A stretch of DNA of 57,807 nt from Deltaproteobacteria bacterium. GTDB taxonomy: Bacteria > Desulfobacterota > Desulfarculia > JACQYL01. The DNA lies in NCBI GenBank assembly GCA_016208165.1, contig JACQYL010000082.1, forward strand, positions 1 through 57,807, written 5' to 3'. The position numbers were made by a program, and so were the translations under genes. Below, one piece after another: positions 2,774 through 45,979 of this stretch. The notes beneath the pieces were generated by a model. That model searched no databases. It saw only the letters and a list, made by a program, of their open reading frames with translations, and had not been told where the DNA came from. Position 1 is the stretch's first letter. The number at the start of each line of letters is the position of its first letter.

Positions 2774-3538
2774 TCAAATCCTCTCCAACAATTTCAAGAT
2801 CCCATCAAGAATGGACAGTGGATGCGGCGGGCAGCCGGGAATAAAGAGGTCCACCGGGACGACGGACACAGCACCGTTGTGCTGTTCGGCATGACCAATG
2901 AAGGGCCCACCGGACACGGCGCAGGCTCCCACAGCAATGACGATCTTGGGATCAGGGACGGCCGCGTACGTTTTTTCCAGAGCAAGACGCATGTTGACGG
3001 TCACCGGACCGGTGATCAGCAGTCCGTCGGCGTGCCGTGGCGAGGCGACGAATTGAATCCCAAAACGGCCCATATCCCAGGCCGGCGTACCGAGCACGTT
3101 GCAATCGGCCTCGCAGGCGTTGCAGCCGCCGGCTGAGACTTGCCGAAGTTTGAGGGAGCGGACAAAGAATTTGGCGGCCGGTTCGTTGCGAGCTTGTATC
3201 GTATGATCGACCCCGCCTCCGATGACCAATCCCTCTCGTGTGGGGGATGCCGAAGAGTAATCCCGGGTGAACCGGATCAAGCCCTGGGGGCAGGCCTTTT
3301 CACAGGCCCGGCAGAAAAGGCACCGGCCGGTATCCAGTGTCACGGAGCTTCTTTCGCGCGCAAGGGCTATGGCGTTCGTAGGACACACGGTCATGCATGC
3401 GCCGCAATCGGCGTTGCAGGCATCGTCTCGAAGCACGGGTCTTCCCGCGAACCGGGCAGGCAGCTCCGGAGCCGGGCCGCCCGGATAGGTCATGGTGCGA
3501 TATTTCTGTTGAAATCGTGTTTTGAGTGTTCTCAGCAT
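2774..3538 (-). CDS. Ehr/group 4 hydrogenase-like small subunit fused to a ferredoxin domain
   Basis: The 254-residue protein joins a two-cluster ferredoxin domain (CNADCGACMTVCP and CLFCRACEKACP, about residues 38-85) to a NuoB/HycG-type small subunit. The proximal [4Fe-4S] cysteines are present: CNACEADC, GACAVSGG and PGCPPHP. In E. coli hydrogenases 3 and 4 these two parts are separate proteins (HycF and HycG types), so this is a compact fusion. It should carry electrons from a soluble donor to the interface with the large subunit. It is the last gene of the minus-strand cluster, starting 25 bases after the large subunit ends. All iron-sulphur ligands appear intact, unlike the nickel site of its partner. 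Confidence 0.85.
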   Translation of the reverse strand: MLRTLKTRFQQKYRTMTYPGGPAPELPARFAGRPVLRDDACNADCGACMTVCPTNAIALARERSSVTLDTGRCLFCRACEKACPQGLIRFTRDYSSASPTREGLVIGGGVDHTIQARNEPAAKFFVRSLKLRQVSAGGCNACEADCNVLGTPAWDMGRFGIQFVASPRHADGLLITGPVTVNMRLALEKTYAAVPDPKIVIAVGACAVSGGPFIGHAEQHNGAVSVVPVDLFIPGCPPHPLSILDGILKLLERI

Positions 3539-3562
3539 GAGATCTTCTCGGTACAGTGACGG

Positions 3563-5077
3563 CTATAGATCGTGACCACAATAAGACAGGTTGAAGCTTT
3601 TGTTACACAATGGAAAATCGGAAATCTGCTGCCGGCGCAAGGCCAGGGCCAGACCAAACCAATTGTGAAACGACGGGTCGACCACTTTGTAAAAAGCAAA
3701 ACGGCCTTCCTTGTCCGTACCGGCCACGTGGCAGATCTCACCTCGCCATCCTTCCACCAGACTGACCGCTAGGGCATCGGATTTCAATGCCGGTAAGTCC
3801 CGGCTAAGGGGCCCCTTCGGAAGCTCCTGCAAGCGTTGGCGGATGAAGTCGATCGATGCTTGAACCTCCAACCAGCGAACCTGGGCGCGGCCGAAGCAAT
3901 CACCGCTGTGCCAGGTATTCACCGGCAGATGCGCCAGCCGGTATAATCCGTACGGAAATTCGAAGCGTACGTCCCGAGCCAGTCCACACGCCCGGGCGGC
4001 TACTCCTACCAGCCCGATTCGCCGGGCGGTATCGACGGATACAACACCGGTCGACTCGAAACGCGCCATCACCGAAGGAGTATCGAGCATGAGCGTCACC
4101 GCTGCAATCACATCCTTTTGAACGGCTTCCAGGCGTGCCGACAGATCATCGATCAGCTCGGAATCCAGATCCCATTCCACACCAGCCGGCCGGATCAGTC
4201 CGCGGCCAAAGCGGTTTCCGCACAAGGCGGCTGTCATATTCAGCACATCGCCGCGAATTCGACCGCAATAATTCATGGTCGGCAAGAACCCCACATCACC
4301 GGCCATCGCGCCCAAGTCACCGATGTGGTTGGCCATTCGCTCCAACTCGGCGGCAATCACCCGGATTACCTCGGCTCGGGGCGGAACCTGAATGCCCGCC
4401 AGCGCTTCCACGGCGTGACTATAGGCCATGACATGTCCGATGGTGGTGTCCCCGGCGAGGGTCTCCATGTAATGAACCGTGCGGGGGCCCGGACCTCCGA
4501 TCATGGCCCGCTCGATGCCCCGATGCTGGTAGCCCAGAGAAATCTCAAGGTGATACACGGTTTCGCCGTGGCACAGGAAACGGAAATGGCCGGGCTCGAT
4601 GACACCGGCGTGCACCGGACCGACCGCCACTTCGTGGCTTTCCTCGCCTTCCATCGAAAAGAAGTCTGTCACTCCCACGGGAGCGGTTTCCGGACAACCG
4701 GCCGCATGACCGCGCGGAGGTTCGAAACGGATTGGCTTGAGCCAGGGATGGCCTTCAGGAGTTATTCCCCATTGCTCGGCGATTTCCCGTTCGAACCAAT
4801 GCGCCGCCGCGCAATCAGGCGTCAGCGAGGGCCATCGATCGAAGAGGGCGCCGGTCAGGAGCCCAATCTCGGAATTTTCCGGAAAGCTCAATACGGCGAT
4901 TATTGTCAATTCGCCGTTGTCGGCGGAGGGCCGGACCGGCATGGCCGAAAGACGCGCGCCGTATGCAACAGCCGCGATAACCGCCTGACGGAACCGTTCG
5001 AAGGGGACCGCGGGGATGGCCTCCAGACTTATGGTTTCGTTGTTTCCGATCATGCAGAAATCGTTGATGATCGACAT
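3563..5077 (-). CDS. Hydrogenase-like large subunit lacking Ni-Fe ligands (Ehr-type)
   Basis: The 504-residue protein has an N-terminal NuoC/HycE-like domain (about residues 30-130) followed by a NuoD/HycE large-subunit domain. Where nickel enzymes carry the first CxxC, this protein reads TLAGDTTIGH, replacing both cysteines by Ala and Thr. Where they carry the C-terminal DPCxxC, it reads SFNLSYCGHDL, so those two cysteines are also lost by alignment. Known Ehr complexes share this feature and are not expected to make or oxidise H2. The ATG at 5077 overlaps the stop of the upstream antiporter-like gene (TGATG). A longer open frame extends to 5521 but lies inside that gene. The role inferred is electron transfer coupled to ion translocation, with substrate unknown. 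Confidence 0.85.
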   Translation of the reverse strand: MSIINDFCMIGNNETISLEAIPAVPFERFRQAVIAAVAYGARLSAMPVRPSADNGELTIIAVLSFPENSEIGLLTGALFDRWPSLTPDCAAAHWFEREIAEQWGITPEGHPWLKPIRFEPPRGHAAGCPETAPVGVTDFFSMEGEESHEVAVGPVHAGVIEPGHFRFLCHGETVYHLEISLGYQHRGIERAMIGGPGPRTVHYMETLAGDTTIGHVMAYSHAVEALAGIQVPPRAEVIRVIAAELERMANHIGDLGAMAGDVGFLPTMNYCGRIRGDVLNMTAALCGNRFGRGLIRPAGVEWDLDSELIDDLSARLEAVQKDVIAAVTLMLDTPSVMARFESTGVVSVDTARRIGLVGVAARACGLARDVRFEFPYGLYRLAHLPVNTWHSGDCFGRAQVRWLEVQASIDFIRQRLQELPKGPLSRDLPALKSDALAVSLVEGWRGEICHVAGTDKEGRFAFYKVVDPSFHNWFGLALALRRQQISDFPLCNKSFNLSYCGHDL

Positions 5078-6552
5078 CAGCGCCCTCCTGCCAATTGGGC
5101 GGCCCGAGACAGAAAGTCCCAGATGGCCGGGGGCATGTACAGACCCAAGAAAACGACTCCGATGCCCAGACTCGCCGCCGGGATAACGAACCAGCGAGGT
5201 TCGCGGGCATAAGATGCGTCGCCGGTCGTTGCCGCCGGCTCCCGGGTCGAACCGAAGACCATCGGCAAAACGACCCGCGCCATGGCAATGAAAATGATTC
5301 CCAGGGCCGCCAGGTATCCGGCCGCAACGGCCCAGCGCCCGCTTTCCAATGCCCCTTTGAGAATGGTCAGTTCGCTGATGAACAGACCGAACGGCGGCGA
5401 ACCCGTGATTGCGAGAAACCCGGCCATCCACAGGAAAGCGGTTATAGGGAGGGAATGCAGTGCATGGCGAACGTCGGCCGCGGTTTTGGCGCCATAGACG
5501 TGCAGCAGCTGTCCGGCGCACAGGAACAGCATCCCTTTCGTCAACGAATGGCAGGCCGCGTGGAGCATGGCGCCGACGCCGGACAGACCTCCAAGGCCCA
5601 CGCCGAGGGAGAGGATTCCCATGTGCTCGATACTCGAGTAAGCCAACATCCGCTTGTAGTCGACCTGCCCGACAATAAACACGGCGGCGATCGACATGGA
5701 AAGCAGCCCGAAAAAGACCAGCAGCTCGCCGCTGAACGTCCCCAATCCAGCGGCATTCAGCACGCTGTTTCCTCGCAAGATGCCCAGAAAGGCGCAGTTG
5801 AGCAAGGTCCCCGAGAGCAGCGTCGAGACCATGGACGGGGCCTCGCTATGGGCATCGGGCAACCAGGTATGCATGGGGGCAAGCCCCATCTTTGTGCCGT
5901 AGCCGACGAGCAACATGAGGAATGCGGCTTTAAGCCACAAGGGGTCCAGGCCGGCGGCTTTGGACAAAAGATCGTCCAGGTTGAGATGCACCTGACCATG
6001 GCCGGCGTATGCCAGGAAGAAATTGCCCAAAAGGGCCATGGCTATTCCCACCGAGCAGATCATCAGGTACTTCCAGGTCGCTTCCAGACTGCGGTGATGC
6101 CGGTGAAAGCCGATGAGCGGCGCACTGACCAACGTGGTCGCTTCGACCGCCACCCACAGCAAGCCCAGATCCCGACTGATGCAGACCAGGCTCATGGTGG
6201 CGAGAAATAGCAGCAGGCAGCCGATGAATTTCGCTTCCGGCCAATTGTAAAAAGCGAAACCTTCTTCCGCGTCATTGACAATACGACCCGATTCGCGTCC
6301 GAGATAGCCGGCGGTATAAACGGCAACAGCGGCGAATAGGATGCTGGTGACCGCCAAGAACAGCAGGCCCGTGGCGTCGAGGCCGACCCACGCTCCGGGT
6401 TCGACGGCCGCTGGGCGCACGGCGTTTACGGCGACCGCAGCGACGTGCCCGCCGCTGCCGAGCAGCAGCATGGCCCGGCGCAGACGCCGGGAGGAAATGA
6501 AGAAAGCCGCGGCTCCGAGAACCGCGGGAATCGCAACAATACTCAACAGCAT
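5077..6552 (-). CDS. HyfF/NuoN-like antiporter-type membrane subunit
   Basis: This 491-residue polytopic membrane protein belongs to the Mrp antiporter/NuoL-M-N superfamily. The signature around KMGLAPMHTWLPDAHSEAPS is present, with about 14 hydrophobic segments. In group 4 hydrogenases and complex I such subunits form the ion-pumping arm. It lies between the HyfE-like gene (four-base gap) and the large subunit (overlapping stop and start), so it is surely co-transcribed. It is one of two antiporter-like subunits in the cluster, the other being at 8125-10113. The assignment to HyfF rather than HyfD type is by gene order and size. Confidence 0.85.
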   Translation of the reverse strand: MLLSIVAIPAVLGAAAFFISSRRLRRAMLLLGSGGHVAAVAVNAVRPAAVEPGAWVGLDATGLLFLAVTSILFAAVAVYTAGYLGRESGRIVNDAEEGFAFYNWPEAKFIGCLLLFLATMSLVCISRDLGLLWVAVEATTLVSAPLIGFHRHHRSLEATWKYLMICSVGIAMALLGNFFLAYAGHGQVHLNLDDLLSKAAGLDPLWLKAAFLMLLVGYGTKMGLAPMHTWLPDAHSEAPSMVSTLLSGTLLNCAFLGILRGNSVLNAAGLGTFSGELLVFFGLLSMSIAAVFIVGQVDYKRMLAYSSIEHMGILSLGVGLGGLSGVGAMLHAACHSLTKGMLFLCAGQLLHVYGAKTAADVRHALHSLPITAFLWMAGFLAITGSPPFGLFISELTILKGALESGRWAVAAGYLAALGIIFIAMARVVLPMVFGSTREPAATTGDASYAREPRWFVIPAASLGIGVVFLGLYMPPAIWDFLSRAAQLAGGR

Positions 6553-6556
6553 GATC

Positions 6557-7201
6557 TCAATCCTTCAGTTCTGACAAGCGGTCGGTATCGATATGGTCGA
6601 ATTCTCGGTTGATCTGGTAGATGGTAATCCCCATAACGAAGACCGCCACGAACACGTCAAGCAGTACGCCCATTTCCACCAGCAAAGGTTCCTTGACCGC
6701 GAGCGCCGCGCCGAAGGCATAGATCCCGTTTTCCATGACCAGGTACCCAACCACCTGGGTCAGCGCTTTGCGGCGCGAGACGATGATCAACAGACCGGTC
6801 AGAATGCTGAACAGGGCACCGGGGAGCAATGATGCCAGACCAGGCCCCGTGGCTGCTTTCAACGGCTGGGCAATCAGAAACGCCAGACCGAGCAAGGCGA
6901 TGCCGGTGAGAATGGACACGGTATAGCCAATAAAGGGTTCAATCTCCCGTTGTACGTCCGCTGCACGCATGCTTCGGCGCAGGAGCCAGGGCAACAGCAC
7001 CCCCTTGACCGTCAGGGTTACCAGCGAAAGCGTCATAAGCCGAAGAGGCCAAGGGTGGTCGGCCAAGGTCAGGGGAATCACGGTCAGGGCAATTGCCTGC
7101 AGCACCATGGTCTCAATCATGGCTGCCAGTCGGCTCGAGGACAGCAGCCGGAAATTGGTCAACACCAAGCCCAAAACAAACACATCGGTCCAGATCGCCA
7201 T
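6557..7201 (-). CDS. HyfE-like membrane subunit
   Basis: The 214-residue protein is almost entirely hydrophobic, with about six to seven predicted helices and a short hydrophilic tail (INREFDHIDTDRLSELKD). That size, the acidic C-terminus and the position between HyfC-like and HyfF-like genes fit HyfE, a NuoK-related subunit. I chose the ATG at 7201 because it falls immediately after the upstream gene's stop at 7204. The open frame continues to 7423, but that part overlaps the upstream gene and reads as non-membrane nonsense. It should sit in the membrane arm that couples electron flow to ion movement. Confidence 0.8.
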   Translation of the reverse strand: MAIWTDVFVLGLVLTNFRLLSSSRLAAMIETMVLQAIALTVIPLTLADHPWPLRLMTLSLVTLTVKGVLLPWLLRRSMRAADVQREIEPFIGYTVSILTGIALLGLAFLIAQPLKAATGPGLASLLPGALFSILTGLLIIVSRRKALTQVVGYLVMENGIYAFGAALAVKEPLLVEMGVLLDVFVAVFVMGITIYQINREFDHIDTDRLSELKD

Positions 7202-7203
7202 GC

Positions 7204-8118
7204 TCACCTCAGTATCCAGAAGAATGCCGCCAGTGTAAGGGCCAGGGCCACCACCAGCATCTGCGGCACACGCAAGAGGCGGAGGCGGGCCATGGTCGAT
7301 TCGATAATTCCGACGATCACCGCCGCAATAAAAACCCCACCAATATGGACGGCCAGATCCAACATCGGTCGTCCCGTGCGTAGAGGTATTGCCAGGCCCG
7401 CCAGCAGTGCGGCGAACAGCCACAATTTCAGGGCGGCGCCGTATTGAATGAACGCCAGATCCACTCCGCCGTGGTCCAGCACCATGAGTTCATGAATCAT
7501 GGTCAACTCCAGATGGGTCGTGGGGTCGTCCACCGGGATGCGGGCATTTTCGGCCAGCAGCACCATCAACAACGCCATGGCCACCAGCAGGACCGAAGCA
7601 CTGGCGGGGAGCGTGCCTTCAGACCAGAGGCGGCCGTAAATGCCGGAGAGGTTGAACTGGCCGGTGCCGGCAGCCAACACCGCCAGCCCGGAAAAGAGAA
7701 CCGGCTCGGCCAGAAGCGCAAACTGCATCTCCCGGGCGGCCCCCATTCCTTCGAAGGCCGATCCCGTATCCAGAGCGGCCAGGACCGTGAAGAAACGCAT
7801 CAGACCCAAGGAATAGGCCAGAAAAACAAAGTCCCCCTGAAAGGCAAATGTCGCCCTGAGTCCTCCTGCCGGGACAGTGGCCATGACCGCCAGAAGAACG
7901 GCCAGCCCGATCAGCGGCCCTGCTCGGAATATCCAGGTGGCGGTCCGGCTGTAGACCGCGCCTTTTCTCATCAATTTGAATAGATCATAGTAGGCCTGCA
8001 GAAGCGGCTGGCCTTTGCGTCCGCCGAAAAAAGCTTTGGTCCGGTTGATGACGCCCAGCAGCAGCGGCGCCAGCACTACCGCCAAAACCCAGTAGAGAAT
8101 GGATGCCGTCAATGTCAT
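7204..8118 (-). CDS. HyfC/HycD/NuoH-like membrane subunit
   Basis: The 304-residue protein shows the NuoH/HycD family pattern. It has about eight membrane helices, an early cytoplasmic loop rich in Arg and Lys (INRTKAFFGGRKGQPLLQAY), and acidic loops such as ENARIPVDDPTTHLELTMIH. In complex I and group 4 hydrogenases this subunit connects the peripheral electron-transfer arm to the ion-pumping arm. Spacing to neighbours is 6 bases upstream and about 2 downstream. The characteristic E-x-x-R-x-P-x-D loop is intact, so the coupling subunit appears functional even though the large subunit lacks a nickel site. Confidence 0.87.
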   Translation of the reverse strand: MTLTASILYWVLAVVLAPLLLGVINRTKAFFGGRKGQPLLQAYYDLFKLMRKGAVYSRTATWIFRAGPLIGLAVLLAVMATVPAGGLRATFAFQGDFVFLAYSLGLMRFFTVLAALDTGSAFEGMGAAREMQFALLAEPVLFSGLAVLAAGTGQFNLSGIYGRLWSEGTLPASASVLLVAMALLMVLLAENARIPVDDPTTHLELTMIHELMVLDHGGVDLAFIQYGAALKLWLFAALLAGLAIPLRTGRPMLDLAVHIGGVFIAAVIVGIIESTMARLRLLRVPQMLVVALALTLAAFFWILR

Positions 8119-8124
8119 GATTGA

Positions 8125-10113
8125 TCACCTCAGCTTCAGCACCAATAGAACGAGAGCGGTAACCGCAATGTAAAGCACATAGAGCTGGTTGCGGCCCTGC
8201 TGCAGCCAGCGCAGGCTGCGGGACAGGCTTGCGACGGCTCGGAACAGCGGCGCGAAAAGATGCTGTCGGAAAGGGTCGGCGGTGTGCGAGGCCAGGTACG
8301 CCTGCTGCGGAAAATCACCGACATCCATGCGCTCCACCATTCGGGGTCGAACTATCCAGCGGAACATGTTGATGATCGGCCAGGCAAAAGAGGATGCGGT
8401 ATATTGCATGCGGGCCGTCGGGGCGGCGTAGCCGCAGTCCCAAGTCGGCCCTTCGGAGATCGATCGGCCGTTAAACAGTCGGCGTCGGAAACCCGCCAAA
8501 ACGATCGTTATCGTGACAATGATGCCACCCCCCAAACTGACGGAGACTAGCCAAGGTCGAACGGAGACGGACGCGGCCGCTGCGGCTGATTCCCCCAGCA
8601 GCTGCGCGGCCGCCGGGTAAACCAGCCCCACGCCCAGTGGAGCCCCCAGACCAAGAAGGACGCACAACCCGGCCAGCACCACCATGGGGCGCCGCATGGT
8701 ATAGGGGCGCTCTTGGGCATGCAGAGCGCCCTCGGATCGCGGGGATCCCAAAAAGGCAACACCGTACACCTTCGCGAAACAAGCCGCCGCCAAGCCGCCG
8801 ATCATGCTGAGGGCGAGCAGTGTAGTCATGCCTGCGACCACGAGACCACGATCGACGGCTGCCGACGTAACGGCGTTGAAGGCCCCCATGTAGATGAGCA
8901 GCTCGCTGACAAATCCATTTAACGGAGGAAGCCCGCAGATGGCCACCGCGCCGATCAGGAAGGACACAGCGGTGTTCGGCATGAGTTTCTGCAACCCGCC
9001 GAGACGATCGATTTCGAGCGTATGGGCACCTTGTTTCACTGCGCCTGCCCCGAGAAAAAGCAGGCTTTTGAAGATGGCATGATTACAGACGTGCAGCAAC
9101 CCGCCCAATATCCCCAAAGCGGCCAACTCCGGACTTCGGAAGGCGCTGCCCAGCAGCCACAATCCGAGCCCCAGGCAGATGATGCCGATATTCTCGACGC
9201 TGTGGTAAGCCAGCAGGCGCTTGAGGTCATGCTGGGCCAGAGCGTACAGCACGCCAAGAACGCCCGAGATCGCGCCGATGATCAGCAGGGTCCAGCCCCA
9301 CCAGCTCGGCGGCGGCCCCATCAGCGACAGAATGCGAACCAGACCGTAAATGCCGGTCTTGATCATCACTCCGCTCATCACTGCCGAGACATGCGACGGC
9401 GCCGCCGGGTGGGCTTCCGGCAGCCAGATATGCAGTGGGAAGAAACCAGCCTTGGCGCCAAAACCCAAGACCGCCAGCACAAACAGCACACCCGCCATGA
9501 GCGCGCCGGAAGGAGCGGCGAGCCGGTCGAAGTCAAGATTCGCATGTGCTCCGCCAAGCAGCACAAACAACGCCAGCAGGCAGGCTGCTCCCAGATGCGC
9601 GGCGGTCAGATAAATCCAGCCCGCTTCGCGCACTGAAGCTTTTTCGTGTTCGAACATCACCAGGAAGAACGACGACAGGGACATGCCTTCCCAGGCCATG
9701 ATAAATAAGATGCCGTTCCGCGCCATCACCACCAGCAACATTCCTGCAATCAGCAGGTTGAAAAATGTCCACGCCGTCCCAATATCTCTGCGTTCCTCGT
9801 AGGCTTTGAGATAACCCACTCCGTAGATCGCCGCCAGGGCGCTGACAACGGAAATCAGAACGATAAAAAGGGCTGTAAGGGGGTCGACGGCGACATAGAA
9901 GCTTCCAAAGGGCGCCTGCCATGCTAGCCGCAGGGTCAACGTTCGACCGGTGAACAACACCTCGGCCGCCGGCCATAGAGACAGAACCGCCCCGGTCACA
10001 CTGACGGCAGCGCCCAAGCGGGATGCAGCTCTCGATGAACCCCGGAGAAAAGAACAGGCGATACCGCCTGCGGTCAGCACCAGCAGCGAGAGTAGACTTA
10101 ATCCCATGCTCAT
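8125..10113 (-). CDS. HyfB-like antiporter-type membrane subunit (NuoL/M family)
   Basis: This 662-residue polytopic protein has the NuoL/M signature near AKAGFFPLHIWLPEAHPAAP, preceded by the family's conserved acidic helix (MAWEGMSLSSFFLVMFEHE). About 15-16 helices are visible, with a C-terminal extension typical of HyfB/HycC. It is the first structural gene after the regulator, whose stop overlaps its start by four bases (ATGA), a strong sign of translational coupling. Together with the HyfF-like subunit it would provide two antiporter modules for proton or sodium movement. Which ion is pumped cannot be read from the sequence. Confidence 0.87.
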   Translation of the reverse strand: MSMGLSLLSLLVLTAGGIACSFLRGSSRAASRLGAAVSVTGAVLSLWPAAEVLFTGRTLTLRLAWQAPFGSFYVAVDPLTALFIVLISVVSALAAIYGVGYLKAYEERRDIGTAWTFFNLLIAGMLLVVMARNGILFIMAWEGMSLSSFFLVMFEHEKASVREAGWIYLTAAHLGAACLLALFVLLGGAHANLDFDRLAAPSGALMAGVLFVLAVLGFGAKAGFFPLHIWLPEAHPAAPSHVSAVMSGVMIKTGIYGLVRILSLMGPPPSWWGWTLLIIGAISGVLGVLYALAQHDLKRLLAYHSVENIGIICLGLGLWLLGSAFRSPELAALGILGGLLHVCNHAIFKSLLFLGAGAVKQGAHTLEIDRLGGLQKLMPNTAVSFLIGAVAICGLPPLNGFVSELLIYMGAFNAVTSAAVDRGLVVAGMTTLLALSMIGGLAAACFAKVYGVAFLGSPRSEGALHAQERPYTMRRPMVVLAGLCVLLGLGAPLGVGLVYPAAAQLLGESAAAAASVSVRPWLVSVSLGGGIIVTITIVLAGFRRRLFNGRSISEGPTWDCGYAAPTARMQYTASSFAWPIINMFRWIVRPRMVERMDVGDFPQQAYLASHTADPFRQHLFAPLFRAVASLSRSLRWLQQGRNQLYVLYIAVTALVLLVLKLR

Positions 10114-38255: not shown

Positions 38256-38867
38256 AAATGGTTATCCTTACTTATAAGCGAAAAATGATGTTCGGCGATT
38301 CGGGCCCACATGCTTCCGCATGAGGAACGGCCTCTCCTGTATGGTTCTGCAGGATGGAAATCAGAAGATCCGACGCTCCGGATGAAGGCAAAGCATTACT
38401 ATTGACAGACGTCCTTGCCTAGGCTATGTACAGACTGCGGTTGTGAAGATCGGCACGATGTAGGACGTAAACCCAACGAGCTTGAAGGAGCAACCAAGGT
38501 CGAATTGAACCCTGTGGCGAAGCCACAGACGAAAGCCGGGTTCTCTGTTCCGTCCTCTCACCGCTATTAAAACGGTCGTGCATGGGCCCTGCGGGGGATG
38601 GCTTCCGCCTTCGCACCGAGAAAAGCTGAACGAGCGGTCGTTCCTTTCTTTGATTTCCGTGCGGACGGCATATCCCGGGTCCTTGAAGGCTGCCATCTCT
38701 CTCCGAACCGCCAGGTTTGTACGGTTCCTTGGCGCGACCGCTCCTGCGCAATCACTTAGGTTGCGCATTCTATTAGAAACCGCTTTGGTTTACAATAAAC
38801 TATTTTTATTGATTTGGAGCTGGATGGACAAAGTATCATTTTTCGGAAGTTTCAAGGGGAACATTTC
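38256..38867. other. Long unassigned region between hydrolase and the Hdr cluster
   Basis: No convincing gene is visible in about 610 bases, although minus-strand open frames of 110 residues run through it with no recognisable similarity. A perfect small hairpin CTGTGGC-GAA-GCCACAG lies at 38512-38528. An AT-rich palindrome CAATAAA-CTATT-TTTATTG (38793-38811) lies 57 bases before the HdrC-like gene and could be an operator. The middle part is GC-rich and could hold a structured RNA, but I cannot match it to any family. Confidence 0.4.
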
Positions 38868-40509
38868 ATGCTTTTCTCTGTATGTTTGTATGTCGCTTTA
38901 GTTATCTTTGGAATCGGTATTTGCGTCCGGCTGGCATCGTGGTTTCGGTACCGAATAGGGAATGAAGCTCAGGCAATTACGGCTTGGGAGAGGATCTCTT
39001 CCGCTGTTTCAGGTCTGTTTCAAGTTGTTTTCAGCGCTAAGATAGGTACGCTTATTAAGGTATTCTTCCTGGACGTTCTGCTCCAGCGAAAGGTGCTGAA
39101 AGAAGATGTCGTTCGATGGATCATGCACATGTGCATTTACGGCGGTTTTACCTTGCTGTTATTGATGCTTCACGGGGTACTCGGCCACCGTAAACCCTTA
39201 CCTGTTCCTGAGGAATCTATTTGGCGCGCTGGTGATCCTGGGTCTGGCGATCGCCGTCGTCCGGCGTATAGTTGTGCCCGGCATGAGGCGGACGACCCGG
39301 CCCATGGATGTCTACGTCATGACCTTGGTGGGAATCATCCTGGTCTCCGGCGTTTTTCTGGAAGCGACCAAGATCGTGTCCTATACCAGCTTTCAAGAGA
39401 TGGTAGAGGAGTGGGCCTCCCTGGATGAGGACGAACTGGAACATCTGAAAGCGTATTGGGCCGAAGACTTCGGCGTGGTGTTTCCCGAACCCGTGGCCGC
39501 CACGGATCCGGACGCCCTTGAGATGGGAAAAGAGGTGCATGAGGTCAGCTGCGCCTCGTGCCATTCGAAACCGACCTGGGCGTTCCTGTCGTACGGCGTG
39601 TCCAAGGCCATCGGCCCCATAGCCGTGACCCTGACGGACGCCCGTACGCAGGTGGGACTCTGGTATCTCCATTTCCTGGTCTGTTTCGTGGGCCTGGCCT
39701 ACCTTCCCTTCAGCAAGCTCTTTCACATGTTGTCCAGCCCGGTAAGCCTTCTGGCCAACGCCGTCATGGATACCGGCGCGTCGGCGAGGGCCAACGTAGT
39801 GACCCGGCGGGCGATGGAGCTGGATGCGTGCACGCATTGCGCTACGTGCAGTATACACTGCTCCGTGGGGGTGGTGTTCCGGCAGATTGCCAATGAGACC
39901 ATCCTGCCTTCGGAAAAGTTGATTTCATTGAAGGCCATGGCATCGGGGAAACCGCTGGATGGGAAGGAACTCCGAAGGATCCAGGAGGGGAGTTACATCT
40001 GCACCAGCTGTTATCGGTGCACGTCGGTGTGTCCCGTGGGCATCAATCTGCAGGACTTGTGGCTGAGCATGCGGGAGGATCTGTTGCGTCAAGGATATCC
40101 TGAAAACGCGGCCTGGGCCCGCCACGTGCTTGCGGACCGGTTCGGCGGCGCGTTGAGGGACAAGAACGCATCCGTGACGCCCGCCGCCGGGGATCTGCAG
40201 AAGGACATGACGGTATCCCTGCAGGCCGAGACGTTTTCATCCTGTTTCGAGTGCCAGACCTGCACCAATGTCTGCCCGGTGGTCGGCAACTATGAAAATC
40301 CCCGGGAAACCTTGGGCCTGCTCCCGCACCAGATCATGCATTCGCTGGGCCTGGGCCTGGAAAACGAAGCGTTGGGTAATCAGATGATTTGGGATTGTCT
40401 GACCTGCTACATGTGTCAGGAACACTGTCCTCAGGGAGTTCAGGTGACCGACGTCCTGTACGAGTTGAAAAACAGGGCTTACGCCCGCCTGACCGACGAG
40501 GAAGCGTAG
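38868..40509 (+). pseudogene. HdrC-like membrane iron-sulphur protein with haem motif, frameshifted
   Basis: The gene starts at 38868 (MLFSVCLYVALVIFGIGI, with AGGGGAAC upstream) and runs to about 39175. There the frame shifts by one and continues to 40509. In the second frame, reading back from 39232, the sequence GYSATVNPYLFLRNLFGALV joins naturally to the first part. The whole encodes about five NarI-like membrane helices, a haem c site (CASCH), and four sets of iron-sulphur cysteines (CTHCATCSIHC, CTSCYRCTSVC, CFECQTCTNVC and CLTCYMCQEHC). It resembles HdrC/E or DsrM/K-type electron-transfer subunits. It leads an HdrCBA-like set. The shift could be genuine inactivation, programmed frameshifting or sequencing error; a stop at 39163-39165 in the second frame rules out initiation further upstream. 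Confidence 0.7.
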
Positions 40510-40562: not shown

Positions 40563-41471
40563 ATGATTAAATTCGCATTGTTCCCGGGATGTAAGATTCC
40601 CTATTTCGTTCCCCAGTACGAAACGTCGATGAGGATGGTTTTGAAGGAATTGGATGTGGAGTTGGAGGACATTGAATTCAACTGCTGCGGATATCCCGTG
40701 AGGAATCTCCACGAGCGTTCGTATGTGCTTTCCTCCGCCCGGATCCTGGCCCTGTCCGAGGGACGTAATCTCGGCATTCTGACTCCGTGCAAATGCTGTT
40801 ACGGGAGTCTGAAAAAGGCGCAATATCTGCTCGAAAACCACCCGAACCTGCGCGATGAAATCAACGAGCTCCTGGCGGAGGAAGACCTCAAATACGAAGG
40901 CCGGATCGAGGTGAAACATCTTCTTTCCGTGCTTTTCCACGACGTGGGTCTTGAAGCCATCAAAGAGAAGATCACGAATCCGTACGAAGGGCTCAAAATC
41001 GCCACCCATTACGGGTGCCTCAAAATCGCCACCCATTACGGGTGCCATGCTCTGCGGCCGAGCAAGGTGGTTCAGTTCGACGATCCGTTGGCGCCGACCT
41101 TGTTCGATCGTCTGGTGGAAATCACCGGGGCGGTGAGCGTCGATTGGCCGCTGAAGCTTCAGTGCTGCGGCAACCCCTTGTGGGGCAAGAATGACGCTTT
41201 ATCCCTGGATCTGAGCGTGAAGAAGATCGAGGACGCCGCGAAATCGGAGGCGCACGCACTCTGTGTGGCCTGTACATACTGTCAGATCCAGTTCGACACG
41301 GTCCAGAAAGAGCATATCGCCGGCAGAGCCTCGAAGGTGACCATTCCCTCGATACTGTATCCCCAGCTTCTGGGGCTGGCCATGGGCATGGAGCCGGGGG
41401 CTTTGGGGATGGATAGGAATAAGATCAAGTCGGACAACGTACTCGAGTTCGTCTCGTCGTCCGCTGAATAA
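40563..41471 (+). CDS. HdrB-like CCG-domain heterodisulfide reductase subunit
   Basis: The 302-residue protein carries the two CCG domains that bind noncubane [4Fe-4S] clusters in HdrB. The first is FPGC, FNCCGYP and CKCCYGSL; the second is [19 protein letters not shown] and CTYCQIQF. It should receive or donate electrons for disulfide or heterodisulfide chemistry. A tandem 27-base duplication puts nine residues (LKIATHYGC) in twice, just at the start of the second domain, adding an extra cysteine near the cluster. The start at 40563 is chosen because FALFPGC opens the family; the open frame from 40389 overlaps the upstream gene. It sits between the HdrC-like and HdrA genes, 54 and 57 bases from each. 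Confidence 0.85.
40992..41045 (+). repeat. 27-bp perfect tandem duplication inside the HdrB-like gene
   Basis: Two exact 27-base copies (40992-41018 and 41019-41045) encode LKIATHYGC twice in frame. The single-copy form would read smoothly into HALRPSK, as in other HdrB proteins. Confidence 0.9.
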
Positions 41472-41527
41472 GTTACACGCAATCTCGGTTTCCCCGTCCG
41501 GAAGTCAAGATTAGAAAGGATAAACAC

Positions 41528-44500
41528 ATGTCTGGAGAGAAGATCGGTTCCGTCATGGTGGTCGGCGGTGGGATCTCCGGGATGCAGGCCGCTTTGGACC
41601 TGGCCGAGTCCGGATTCTATGTCTACCTGGTGGAGAAGTCCCCTTCCATCGGTGGTATCATGTCCCAATTGGACAAGACGTTCCCCACCGAGGACTGCAC
41701 CACGTGAATTATCTCCCCGAAACTGGTCGAGGTCGGCCGGCATATCAACATCGAGTTGTTGTCCCTGTCTGAGATTGAAGCGGTTGAAGGAGAAGCGGGC
41801 AATTTCAAAGTGAAGGTTCGCCGCAAGGCCCGTTACGTCAAAGAAGGCGTATGCACGGGCTGTGGGGAATGCGCCATTGCGTGTCCCGTCGAGAGGCCCA
41901 ACGAGTTCGACAAAGGGCTTTCCAAACGAAAGGCCATCTACAGAGCTTTCCCCCAGGGGATTCCCATCACCTACGCCATCGAGAAGTTGGATCGGGCCCC
42001 CTGCGTTATCGCCTGTCCGGCGGGAGTCAATGTTCAGGGCTATGTCCAGCTTGTCGGGCAGGGCAAATACGAACAAGCCGTCCGGCTGATCATGGAACGC
42101 CTGCCGTTGCCCGGCGTGCTCGGGCGGGTCTGTCCTCATCCTTGTGAGTCTCAATGCCGAAGGCTCGAGGTAGACCAGGCTATCGCCATAAGGGACTTAA
42201 AACGCCACGCCGCCGACCACGTCGATCTCGAAACCCTGCCCGTTCCGGAGATTGTGGATCGAGAGGAAAAGGTGGCCGTCGTCGGATCCGGTCCGGCAGG
42301 ACTGACCGTGGCCTACTACCTGAGACTAAAGCGCTATCGAGTCACCATTTTTGAAGCGCTCGATTGTTTGGGCGGAATGCTTCGCGTGGGTATTCCGGAT
42401 TATCGATTGCCCCCCGATATATTGGACAAGGAGATCAACTACCTTCTGAAAACAGGCATAGAGGTGAAATCAGGAGTTCGTCTGGGCGTCGATTTCACGC
42501 TCGACAGCTTGAGAGAGCAGGGGTTCAATGCCATTTTTCTCGGAACGGGCGCCCACGATACGATGAAACTCAAAATTCCCGGTGAGGACGAGTTCGAAGG
42601 AGTTATCGACGCGGTGGAATTTCTGAGACACGTCAACCTGGGACTCCGCAAGCGCCCGGGTAATCGTGTGACCATTATAGGGGGAGGTAATGTAGCCATT
42701 GACGCCGCCAGAGCTGCAAAGCGGCTTGGCAGCACGGAAGTCACAATTGTGTACCGCCGCACCAAGGACGAAATGCCGGCCTATGCCGAGGAGATCGAAG
42801 GCGCTTTGGCCGAGGGCGTCCGGATGCACTTCCTCACGGTCCCGATTCGTATTCTGGGTTCCGACGGTAAAACCACGGGACTGGAATGCCTCAGGACCGA
42901 GTTGAGTACGCCTGACGACAGCGGCCGTCGTCGCCCGGTACCGGTGGAGGGTTCCGAATTCGTGATCGAATGCGACGTGGTCATTCCGGCCATCGGCCAG
43001 ATGCCCGACGTAAAATGGGCCGAAGGCTTGAGCGACCTGGCGCTCACCGCCCGGAGTATGTACGCGGTCAACCCGCATACCATGCAATCCACCGTGCCCG
43101 ACGTGTTTGCGGCAGGGGATTCGGTATCGGGCCCGGCTACGGTGGTAAAAGCCATAGCCGACGGTCACAAGGCCGTGGAAGCCATTCATGGCTATCTGAA
43201 CGGCGAGGATCTGGGAGCCCTGGCGAAAAAGTTAGAGGCACAGGAACCTCCCGGTCACAACTGGAACGATATTCCCGAGGATACTCCCGTGGAAAAGCGG
43301 GCAGCCGCGCGCCATAGGGACGTCCGGGAAAGCGTCGCCGGTTTTGATGAAGTCGATCTAGGGTTCCAGGAACAAGCGGCGAGGAGCGAGGCGTCCCGGT
43401 GCCTCAACTGCGGGATCTGCAGCGAGTGCATGGAGTGTGTTCGCGTGTGCGAAGCCAAGGCTGTGGATCACCGCATGGAGGAAGAGGTAAGAGAAGTTGA
43501 AGTGGGCGGCATCATCCTCGCCCCCGGCACCCAGCCCACGGATCCTGCGGTTTACGATACGTATGGGTACACCCGGTTCCCGAATGTCATGACGAGCCTG
43601 GAATTCGAACGTATGCTCAGCCCCTCCGGCCCGTACGAAGGCCACGTCGTACGGCCGTCCGACCACAAAGAACCCAAGAAAATAGCGTGGTTGCAGTGCG
43701 TCGGCTCCAGAGACGTGCACGAGGGCGCAAGACCGTACTGCTCCACGGTATGCTGCACCTATGCGATCAAGGAAGCGTCGGTAGCGAAGGAGCATGTAAA
43801 AGGCCTCGATACCGCCATTTTCTACATCGACATCCGGACGCACGGCAAAGGGTACGAACAGTACTACAACCGGGCCCGGGACCAGAAAGGGGTCCGCTTT
43901 ATCAAATCCAGGATTGCCTCGCTACGACAGGTGAGTAACTCAGGCGACCTGCAGATCTGGTATACCGACGAAACGGGTCGAAGACTCGAAGAGACGTTCG
44001 ACATGGTCATCTTGTCCGTAGGTCTCTGCGTCTCGGAAGAAAGCGTAGAACTCGCCAAAAAACTGGGCGTGGATCTGGACGCAAACGGCTATCCCGTGGC
44101 GAACGGCTTCGATCCCCTGAAAACGACCCGACCGGGCGTGTTCGCAAGCGGCACCTTTCGTAGTCCCAAAGCCATCCCTTCTTCGGTCATTGACGCCAGC
44201 GGTTCGGCCGGCGTCGCAGCGGCGCTTCTGGCCGATTCGCGAAACACACGGACGCGCTCTCGGGACATCCCCCGGCAAAAGGACGTGAGGGGCGAACCAC
44301 CCAAGATCGGCGTCTTTATTTGTGATTGCGGAAAAAACATCGCGGGTATCGTAGACGTGCCCTCGGTGGTGGAATATGCGAGGAACTTACCATACGTCGC
44401 CCACGTTCAAGAAACGTTGTTCACTTGCGCCCAGAACGTTCAGGAAGACATGGCCGAGATGATCCGGGATAAGGGGCTGAACCGCATTGTGGTGGCCGCC

Positions 44501-45979
44501 TGCACGCCAAGAACACATGCCCCTTTGTTTCAGGAAACTCTGGTAAAAGCGGGACTCAACCGGTACTTGTTCGAAATGGCCAATATTCGAAACCAGTGCT
44601 CATGGGTACACGCCGCCGAGCCGGATCTGGCCACGGAAAAATCCAAGGATCTGGTCCGAATGGCTGCCGCCAGGGCCGCTCAACTCGAGCCGCTTTTGGA
44701 ACACGAGCTTGAGATCAACCATGAGGCGTTGGTGATCGGAGGAGGTATTGCCGGTATGACCGCGGCGTTGAATCTGGCGGCGCAAGGGTACCACACCCAT
44801 CTCATCGAAAGAAGTCCTGTTCTGGGAGGCCAGGCCCGCAATCTCAGACAAGGGTGGAGGGGAGAAGACGTCCAGGAACACCTGAACCGGATGATCGCCG
44901 ACGTCGAGTCCCAGGATGCCGTGGATGTTCATCTCAACGCGGAAGTCAGGAATGTTGAGGGGTTTGTCGGTAACTTCAAGACCACGATCAAAGTAGGTAC
45001 GGAAGAGCGGGCTATCGAGCACGGAGTGATCATTGTCGCCACCGGCGCGTCGGAACTTAAGCCCAAGAACTATTTGTATGGCGAGGACCCCCGAGTCCTT
45101 ACCAATCTGGATCTGGACCGGAAACTGATGGACAACGAGAGCGCTCTCCGCGACACGCGCTGCGCCGTCTTCCTGCAGTGCGTGGGATCGCGCATTCCGG
45201 AACGCCCTTACTGCTCTAAAATCTGTTGCACGCATTCCGTTGTAAGCGCGCTTAAGTTGAAGGAAGTGAAACCGGAAATGGATGTGTACGTGATCTACCG
45301 GGATCTCCGTACCTATGGACTGAAGGAGGAGCTGTACCGGCGCGCCCGTCAGGCTGGAATTCATTTCATCCGATACGTGTTCGAAAACGGCTTCTCGGTA
45401 GCCGCAAACCCTGCGGGCCTTCAGATCGGTTTCACGGATTACGTACTTCAGAGAAGGGTGGAGCTTCGGGCGGATCTGTTGGCATTGGCGGCCGCCATGG
45501 CGCCGTACTCCGAGGATCCTCTGGGTCGTATGTTAAAGGTGCCTTTGAACGACGAGGGCTTTTTTTCCGAAGCTCACATCAAGCTGCGTCCGGTGGACTT
45601 CGCTACGGATGGTGTGTTCGTCTGCGGGCTGGCGCACAATCCCAAGCCCATCGACGAATCCGTCGTTCAGGCTATGGCGGCGGCCGCTCGGGCGGGCACC
45701 ATCCTGGCCAAAGAGCGGATGGTGCTGAAATCCGTGGTTTCTAAAATCAACGAGGACCTCTGCCGCGGTTGCGGCAAGTGCGTGGATGTCTGTCCGTATA
45801 ACGCCGCCGCACTGGTAACACTCGATTCCGGCAAAGAAGTCTCGAGCGTTATCGAAGCCGTGTGCAAGGGATGCGGGCAATGCGCTTCCGTCTGTCCGAC
45901 GGGCGCGGCCACCCTGCAACATTTTACGGACAATCTGATTCTAACCATGGTGGAATCCGCCCTCCAAAAAGCCGGGTAG
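41528..45979 (+). CDS. Giant HdrA-like flavoprotein with predicted selenocysteine and inserted GltD-like module
   Basis: Reading through an in-frame TGA at codon 60 gives about 1,483 residues. Before the TGA lie the HdrA FAD motif (VGGGISG, residues 12-18) and [15 protein letters not shown]; after it comes [18 protein letters not shown]. In HdrA proteins this spot is CxxC, with cysteine replaced by selenocysteine in known selenoproteins, so the TGA (C57-x2-U60) is almost certainly Sec. Ferredoxin-type cysteines follow ([12 protein letters not shown], about residue 108). A GltD-like region has its own iron-sulphur helices, FAD motif (VVGSGPAG, about 250) and NAD(P) motif ([11 protein letters not shown], about 383). 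A second HdrA-type part carries FICDCGKN, another FAD motif (VIGGGIAGM, about 1068) and two C-terminal ferredoxin clusters. Ribosome site GAAAGGAT precedes the ATG. An electron-bifurcating flavin role is inference. Confidence 0.85.
41705..41740 (+). promoter_or_regulatory. In-frame UGA with predicted bacterial SECIS hairpin
   Basis: The TGA is at 41705-41707. Fifteen bases later CTGGTC (41723-41728) pairs with GGCCGG (41735-41740), using two G-U pairs, around the loop GAGGTC. The loop begins 21 bases after the TGA and contains GGUC, as the E. coli fdhF SECIS loop does. This geometry fits insertion of selenocysteine by SelB. Confidence 0.72.

Follow-up and report, generated by a model that had tools for sequence, protein, structure and literature searches.

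Selenocysteine (Sec)-containing HdrA of Deltaproteobacteria and methanogens was described in 2006 (PMC1794560), and Sec-containing fusions of heterodisulfide reductase with glutamate synthase, named HdrL, followed in 2009 (PMC2702500); Sec genes for HdrA and BamE are recorded as well (PMC5109826). The present analysis concerns a gene that joins this described kind. It lies on contig JACQYL010000082.1 of a deltaproteobacterial genome assembly, a stretch of 57,807 nucleotides that is referred to as the window (contig C82; other C-numbers are contigs of the same assembly). At a probability of about 0.93, the hdrA gene at 41528-45979 is a Sec-encoding HdrA gene of the "HdrL type".

In described architecture, the closest likeness is to HdrL1 and HdrL3 of Desulfobacterium autotrophicum HRM2, likewise heterodisulfide reductase/glutamate synthase fusions with Sec, for which electrons from NADH were proposed (PMC2702500). 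By the published description the HRM2 hdrL genes are colocated with mvhD, whereas in the window a membrane hdrC and hdrB precede the gene and no mvhD adjoins it, which is why we write "HdrL-type". The next long downstream open reading frame (ORF) is on the opposite strand, and all 11 MvhD-type matches in the genome lie on other contigs. The 2006 description shares with the window a bacterial Sec HdrA, in operons of hdrA-frhD-frhG-frhA types with a gene between the hdrA parts that had no known function there (PMC1794560). A 2025 classification of HdrA in methane-metabolizing archaea separates type II, with two thioredoxin-reductase domains, from type III, with a GltD insert (PMC12054007); as these types are set out in the accessible text, the window protein has both features and Sec besides, and its Rossmann motif at residue 385 is GGGNVA (GxGxxA) rather than the GxGxxG given for type III. 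The modelled insert is alike in fold to NfnABC/StnABC (9bov, 9n5u, 9n5v, 8oh5), which are transhydrogenase complexes and not HdrA.

The TGA codon and its hairpin

The frame runs from an ATG to a TAG that ends at 45979, and its sole internal stop is the TGA at codon 60. A first-pass annotation, made from the DNA letters alone, had held that the gene is split unless this codon is Sec; readthrough indeed gives 1483 residues with no further stop. It had also expected gene callers to annotate a truncated start at 41756, and a table 11 ORF list offers an alternative TTG start there. Its third proposal, that the TGA occupies the conserved Cys/Sec site of HdrA, agrees with a gap-free phmmer alignment of the surrounding peptide to 5odc, in which residue 60 falls on Cys197, and with the codons of relatives. 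These were sampled as 30 loci from 60 genomes, 80 relatives that were the best of 274 from named genomes, and the window itself. The aligned site held TGA in 48 rows, reduced to 47 (46 of them distinct) by removal of L024, which duplicates the window, and TGC or TGT in 82, reduced to 77 by removal of five without the D/E-C-x-x context. Neither TAA nor TAG occurs at any of the resulting 124 HdrA-type sites, so that homologues with a plain stop at this position, for which a check had been suggested, did not come to light in the sample; other codons at the aligned site were met only in second halves and in unrelated stretches. Desulfospira joergensenii (L117) likewise carries the TGA, in an HdrA that is devoid of GltD. 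Sec and Cys interchange at least 9 times on quick trees of the N segment and at least 11 times on those of the M segment; well-supported branches require 2 and 6 of these, respectively.

In bacteria, the apical loop of a selenocysteine insertion sequence (SECIS) lies some 16-37 nucleotides past the UGA, with a G within the first two loop bases. The window hairpin has these properties. It comprises six base pairs, CUGGUC with GGCCGG, enclosing GAGGUC (the minimum-energy fold has seven base pairs enclosing AGGU), and its loop begins 22 nucleotides from the TGA, much as the first-pass annotation had described it. When a hairpin was defined as a stem of at least 5 base pairs with GGTC in or beside the apical loop, one was found 22-27 nucleotides downstream in 47/47 Sec rows and in 3 of the 77 Cys rows. 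When the Sec rows were recoded at random with synonymous codons, it was preserved in 5.1% of cases on average (maximum 16%; 3.3% for the window row). The main type, CUGGUC-GAGGUC-GGCCGG with 22 nucleotides before the loop, accounts for 37 rows, and two others, at 27 nucleotides, for five rows each. Codon usage points the same way: at codons +8 and +9 all 41 distinct Sec rows with Glu use GAG and all 41 with Val use GTC, while codons +13 to +18 vary among Sec and Cys rows alike. Among the 100 TGAs of the window that have 25 or more open codons ahead of them and 80 or more behind, the hairpin rule was passed by that of codon 60 alone. Genome-wide, the exact pattern of the main hairpin occurs only in the window and on C61, where it belongs to a Sec paralogue whose TGA and hairpin are identical to the window's; a reversed control pattern gave one chance match.

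The selA, selB, selC and selD genes had been named as a further check, and the genome (5.69 Mb in 142 contigs, estimated 95.5% complete) holds a recognizable machinery. Genome searches located a tRNA-Sec with anticodon TCA on C33, selB (384 bits), selD, and a gapped selA; a second-best tRNA-Sec match, on C28, is called tRNA-Ser by ARAGORN. A short run of N separates the selD match from an upstream frame that reads AAGUASKIPP with an in-frame TGA (L019, about 1430-1510), a likely Sec site of SelD. Further HdrA matches with TGA lie on C61, C5 and C29, and one in-frame TGA each was found in 5 of the 11 MvhD-type matches and in two formate-dehydrogenase-type matches, one of them below its family cut-off (L165, L166, L168, L169, L170, L175 and L179). 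With 12 TGA-bearing candidates, the window gene and 11 others, the genome appears rich in selenoproteins, hairpins having been examined at the HdrA sites. Three of the four TGA-bearing HdrA genes have the GGUC-loop hairpin, and the hairpin letters on C5 and C29 differ from the main type. Taken together, these features indicate that UGA codon 60 is very probably read as Sec with the aid of the adjoining hairpin.

Fused halves, a mosaic gene and the predicted role of Sec60

Pfam and NCBIfam matches in the translated product are to FAD, 4Fe-4S, HdrA and GltD-type models; the best NCBIfam model, HdrA2, scores 937 bits, below its cut-off of 1100. By phmmer against solved HdrA, the FAD domain is matched by residues 9-153 and 631-849, the N-terminal part by 923-1081 and the C-terminal part by 1330-1476. 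The hallmarks of HdrA (FAD domain with ferredoxin, CX..CX3CC, N-terminal cluster domain, C-terminal double 4Fe-4S) are all found, distributed over two halves. Judged from these matches, the chain is two fused HdrA halves, the first without an N-terminal domain and carrying a GltD module, a layout that, like the mosaic origin set out next, is absent from the first-pass annotation. An AlphaFold2 model of residues 1-1071 with Sec as Cys (pLDDT 87.8, pTM 0.82) superposes on HdrA 8rvy_A with Z 51.4 and 1.5 Å over 426 residues, and the insert (about residues 152-646) superposes on NfnABC/StnABC with Z 46.8-48.9, the top match being 9bov_A at 48.9. The GltD-type domain fused into HdrA, by which HdrL is recognized, is thus found both by domain matches and by superposition.

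The gene is, as read from sequence comparison, a mosaic of two sister genes, with ends like the Sec paralogue on C61 and a middle like a Cys paralogue on C115. At the protein level the insert shares 88% identity with the C115 paralogue's GltD, and residues 632-1477 share 74% with the C61 paralogue, which has no insert. In DNA, compared with C61 in 90-base steps up to 45709, C61-like sequence covers 41480-41749 (90-99%) and 43550-45709 (73-87%), and C115-like sequence covers 41840-43459 (72-90%). Trees agree: the window joins C115 in a GltD tree of 74 rows (100/100) and C61 in a tree of about residues 631-900 from 26 chosen rows (100/100), and for the latter rows and residues an approximately unbiased (AU) test rejects placement of the window with C115 (p 2.8e-5). 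The N-segment protein tree does not place the window firmly, as would be expected if a joint lay within that segment. The trees give no direction as to donor and recipient, and assembly contamination leaves a small residual doubt. A chimera made in assembly is an unlikely source of the mosaic, because the identities (73-99% to C61, 72-90% to C115) nowhere reach 100%, the frame is open over both joints, and the same domain order occurs in 65 of 131 rows, the window included.

Within the HdrA dimer, the N-terminal cluster of one subunit has Cys197 of its partner as a ligand, and fused archaeal HdrA are marked by complementary loss, Cys197 being missing from whichever half bears the N-terminal domain (both from PMC9012536). 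The window matches this complementary loss. Its half 1 carries Sec60 but lacks the N-terminal domain, which is found, with its four cysteines, in half 2, where the Cys197 region is free of Cys. Among 106 fused rows, of the 94 examinable for half 2 none has CxxC/U in the Cys197 stretch (six have a lone Cys), and all 57 whose first halves could be placed by motif search have the site. In a 32-row alignment, with five Sec rows read as C, Cys57, residue 60 and Cys932, 934, 967 and 992 are invariant. Since half 2 holds the cluster domain without the Cys197 site and the Sec60 half lacks that domain, Sec60 is predicted to coordinate the half 2 cluster as a selenolate. We lean towards this reading, that Sec60 ligates the N-terminal cluster of half 2 through selenium. 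In the openly accessible literature that was searched, as far as its texts extend, Sec was nowhere linked with the role of Cys197 as a cluster ligand in HdrA.

The alternative that survives best accepts Sec60 and has it form a thiol/selenol redox pair (CxxU) with Cys57. The invariance of Cys57 in 32/32 rows suits it, as does a 2026 review whose accessible part tabulates HdrA as CxxU (PMC13188914). It is nevertheless unlikely, for in the HdrA structure the aligned Cys197 is reported to ligate a cluster (PMC9012536) and, in the fused proteins, it is half 2, bearing the cluster domain, that is without the site.

A route for electrons can also be sketched. SelB, tRNA-Sec and the adjacent hairpin would decode UGA codon 60 as Sec. 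From domains and gene order, the GltD/NfnB-like insert would be the entry or exit of NAD(P)H electrons, the flavin of half 1 would split or join electron pairs, and HdrB with the membrane HdrC would carry one electron branch; Sec60, as a cross-half ligand within one chain, would sit on the path to the half 2 cluster. Two residues named for bifurcation, E356 and K409 (PMC12054007, accessible part), have counterparts in half 1, E694 and K748, that are invariant in 32/32 rows; in half 2 they are D and V, aligned by eye. Half 1 would accordingly be the bifurcating half, since it keeps both residues tied to bifurcation. A wider proposal, which we offer tentatively and with less conviction than the ligand role itself, is that the selenolate of Sec60 serves as a natural ligand to a [4Fe-4S] cluster, reaching over the pseudo-dimer interface within a single polypeptide and tuning one branch of bifurcation, and that recombination between Sec and Cys paralogues of the same genome joined the NAD(P)H module to the Sec/SECIS backbone.

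Neighbouring genes and the case for a stop or an error

Table 1. Coordinates in the window of the hdrA gene, its parts and its upstream neighbours
Feature	Position	Strand	Basis
hdrA (HdrL-type) candidate selenoprotein gene, 1483 residues with TGA as Sec	41528..45979	+	ORF list, Pfam/NCBIfam, phmmer
Purine-rich, ribosome-binding-like stretch ahead of ATG	41513..41520	+	by eye only
In-frame TGA, putative Sec60, matched to HdrA Cys197	41705..41707	+	translation, phmmer, site codons of relatives
Bacterial SECIS-like hairpin, GGUC in and beside apical loop (41730-41733 in minimum-energy fold)	41723..41740	+
Half 1: FAD domain with inserted ferredoxin (Cys109/112/115/119), residues 1-153	41528..41986	+	phmmer, alignment
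GltD/NfnB-like insert, about residues 154-611	41987..43360	+	Pfam, NCBIfam, phmmer, structure superposition
Half 1 resumed: rest of thioredoxin-reductase-like domain, CX13CX3CC, E694, K748	43361..44290	+	phmmer, alignment
Half 2: N-terminal iron-sulfur domain, Cys932/934/967/992	44291..44719	+	phmmer, alignment
Half 2: FAD domain without Cys197 site, then C-terminal double 4Fe-4S	44720..45979	+	Pfam, phmmer, alignment
Stretch common to C115-like Cys paralogue	41840..43500	+	joints approximate, from 90-base steps
hdrC (membrane) 5' piece, out of frame with remainder	38868..39180	+	comparison with relatives
hdrC (membrane) remainder: nitrate-reductase-gamma-like, then HdrC-type 4Fe-4S	39199..40509	+
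hdrB with perfect 27-base-pair tandem duplication at 40992-41045	40563..41471	+

Upstream of hdrA lie genes for a membrane HdrC (nitrate-reductase-gamma-like plus 4Fe-4S) and HdrB, as they do in four relatives (L094, L099, L103 and L111), and both are anomalous in the window. In hdrC, two conserved motifs are separated by 37 nucleotides (39168-39204), against 69 in those four relatives; the gene is thus 32 nucleotides short, with a change of frame. The duplication in hdrB repeats LKIATHYGC and is absent from 6/6 other HdrB rows that span the region. The start of C5 (L158, 1-327) is 97.9% identical to 38842-39168 of the window, the match ending where the shortening of hdrC begins, and the end of C61 (L157, 11599-11958) is 92% identical to 41450-41809. 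Judged from these matches, contig boundaries seem to interrupt a second copy of the hdrC-hdrB-hdrA operon, and both anomalies would be explained most simply if the repeated part had been misassembled. Elsewhere in the window, at 2774-10113 on the minus strand, is a cluster resembling a group 4 [NiFe] hydrogenase or Hyf-type membrane complex, named by reading translations.

A number of observations weigh against a Sec-encoding gene or against the role given to its Sec. The frameshift in hdrC and the duplication in hdrB may mean that the operon is damaged or misassembled. The selA match changes frame and is gapped, with profile positions 1-50 and 100-454 just 14 bases apart (L018, 1501-1700), so that about 50 profile positions are gone from the assembly, and the estimated contamination of 4.4% means that any contig but C82 might in principle be foreign. 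As to the hairpin, the rule was drawn up after related rows had been viewed, the main type is nearly invariant in its letters and so makes little covariation available, and the loop of the TGA-bearing HdrA gene on C29 (L159, about 9626) is GGC rather than GGUC. Its fold energy is unremarkable against shuffled sequence (z 0.54; 141 shuffles out of 200 gave an equal or better fold), and the hairpin therefore carries weight only when its placement, its conservation and the letters of its loop are taken into account. The archaeal fusions described in PMC9012536 have their halves in the reverse of the window's order.

The defects of hdrC and hdrB, together with the TTG start available at 41756, are what could be said for a true stop, that is, for a pseudogene or a shorter protein from near 41756 in a decaying operon. 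We regard this as highly improbable: TGA and hairpin occur together in the 47 sampled rows, the TGA is followed by 1423 open codons without a second in-frame stop, and by alignment a protein begun at 41756 would be without the first Rossmann motif and the CxxC/U site. A sequencing error that turned TGC or TGT into TGA, for which the other flaws of the assembly (selA, the selD region, hdrC and hdrB) might be cited, is less credible still, given the TGA-associated GGUC hairpin in the window and the C61 paralogue on a separate contig, whose own TGA and hairpin argue against a base-calling error.

Significance for HdrA in anaerobes

Gene prediction renders HdrA genes of this sort as truncated (PMC12054007, accessible part), and where Sec HdrA occurs, such misprediction leads to the energy metabolism of anaerobes being misread. 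Within one assembly, Sec HdrA without GltD (C61), Sec HdrA with GltD (the window) and Cys HdrA with GltD (C115) make up a natural comparison set, on which it may be tested what is gained by selenium at the site and how an NAD(P)H input was grafted onto HdrA.

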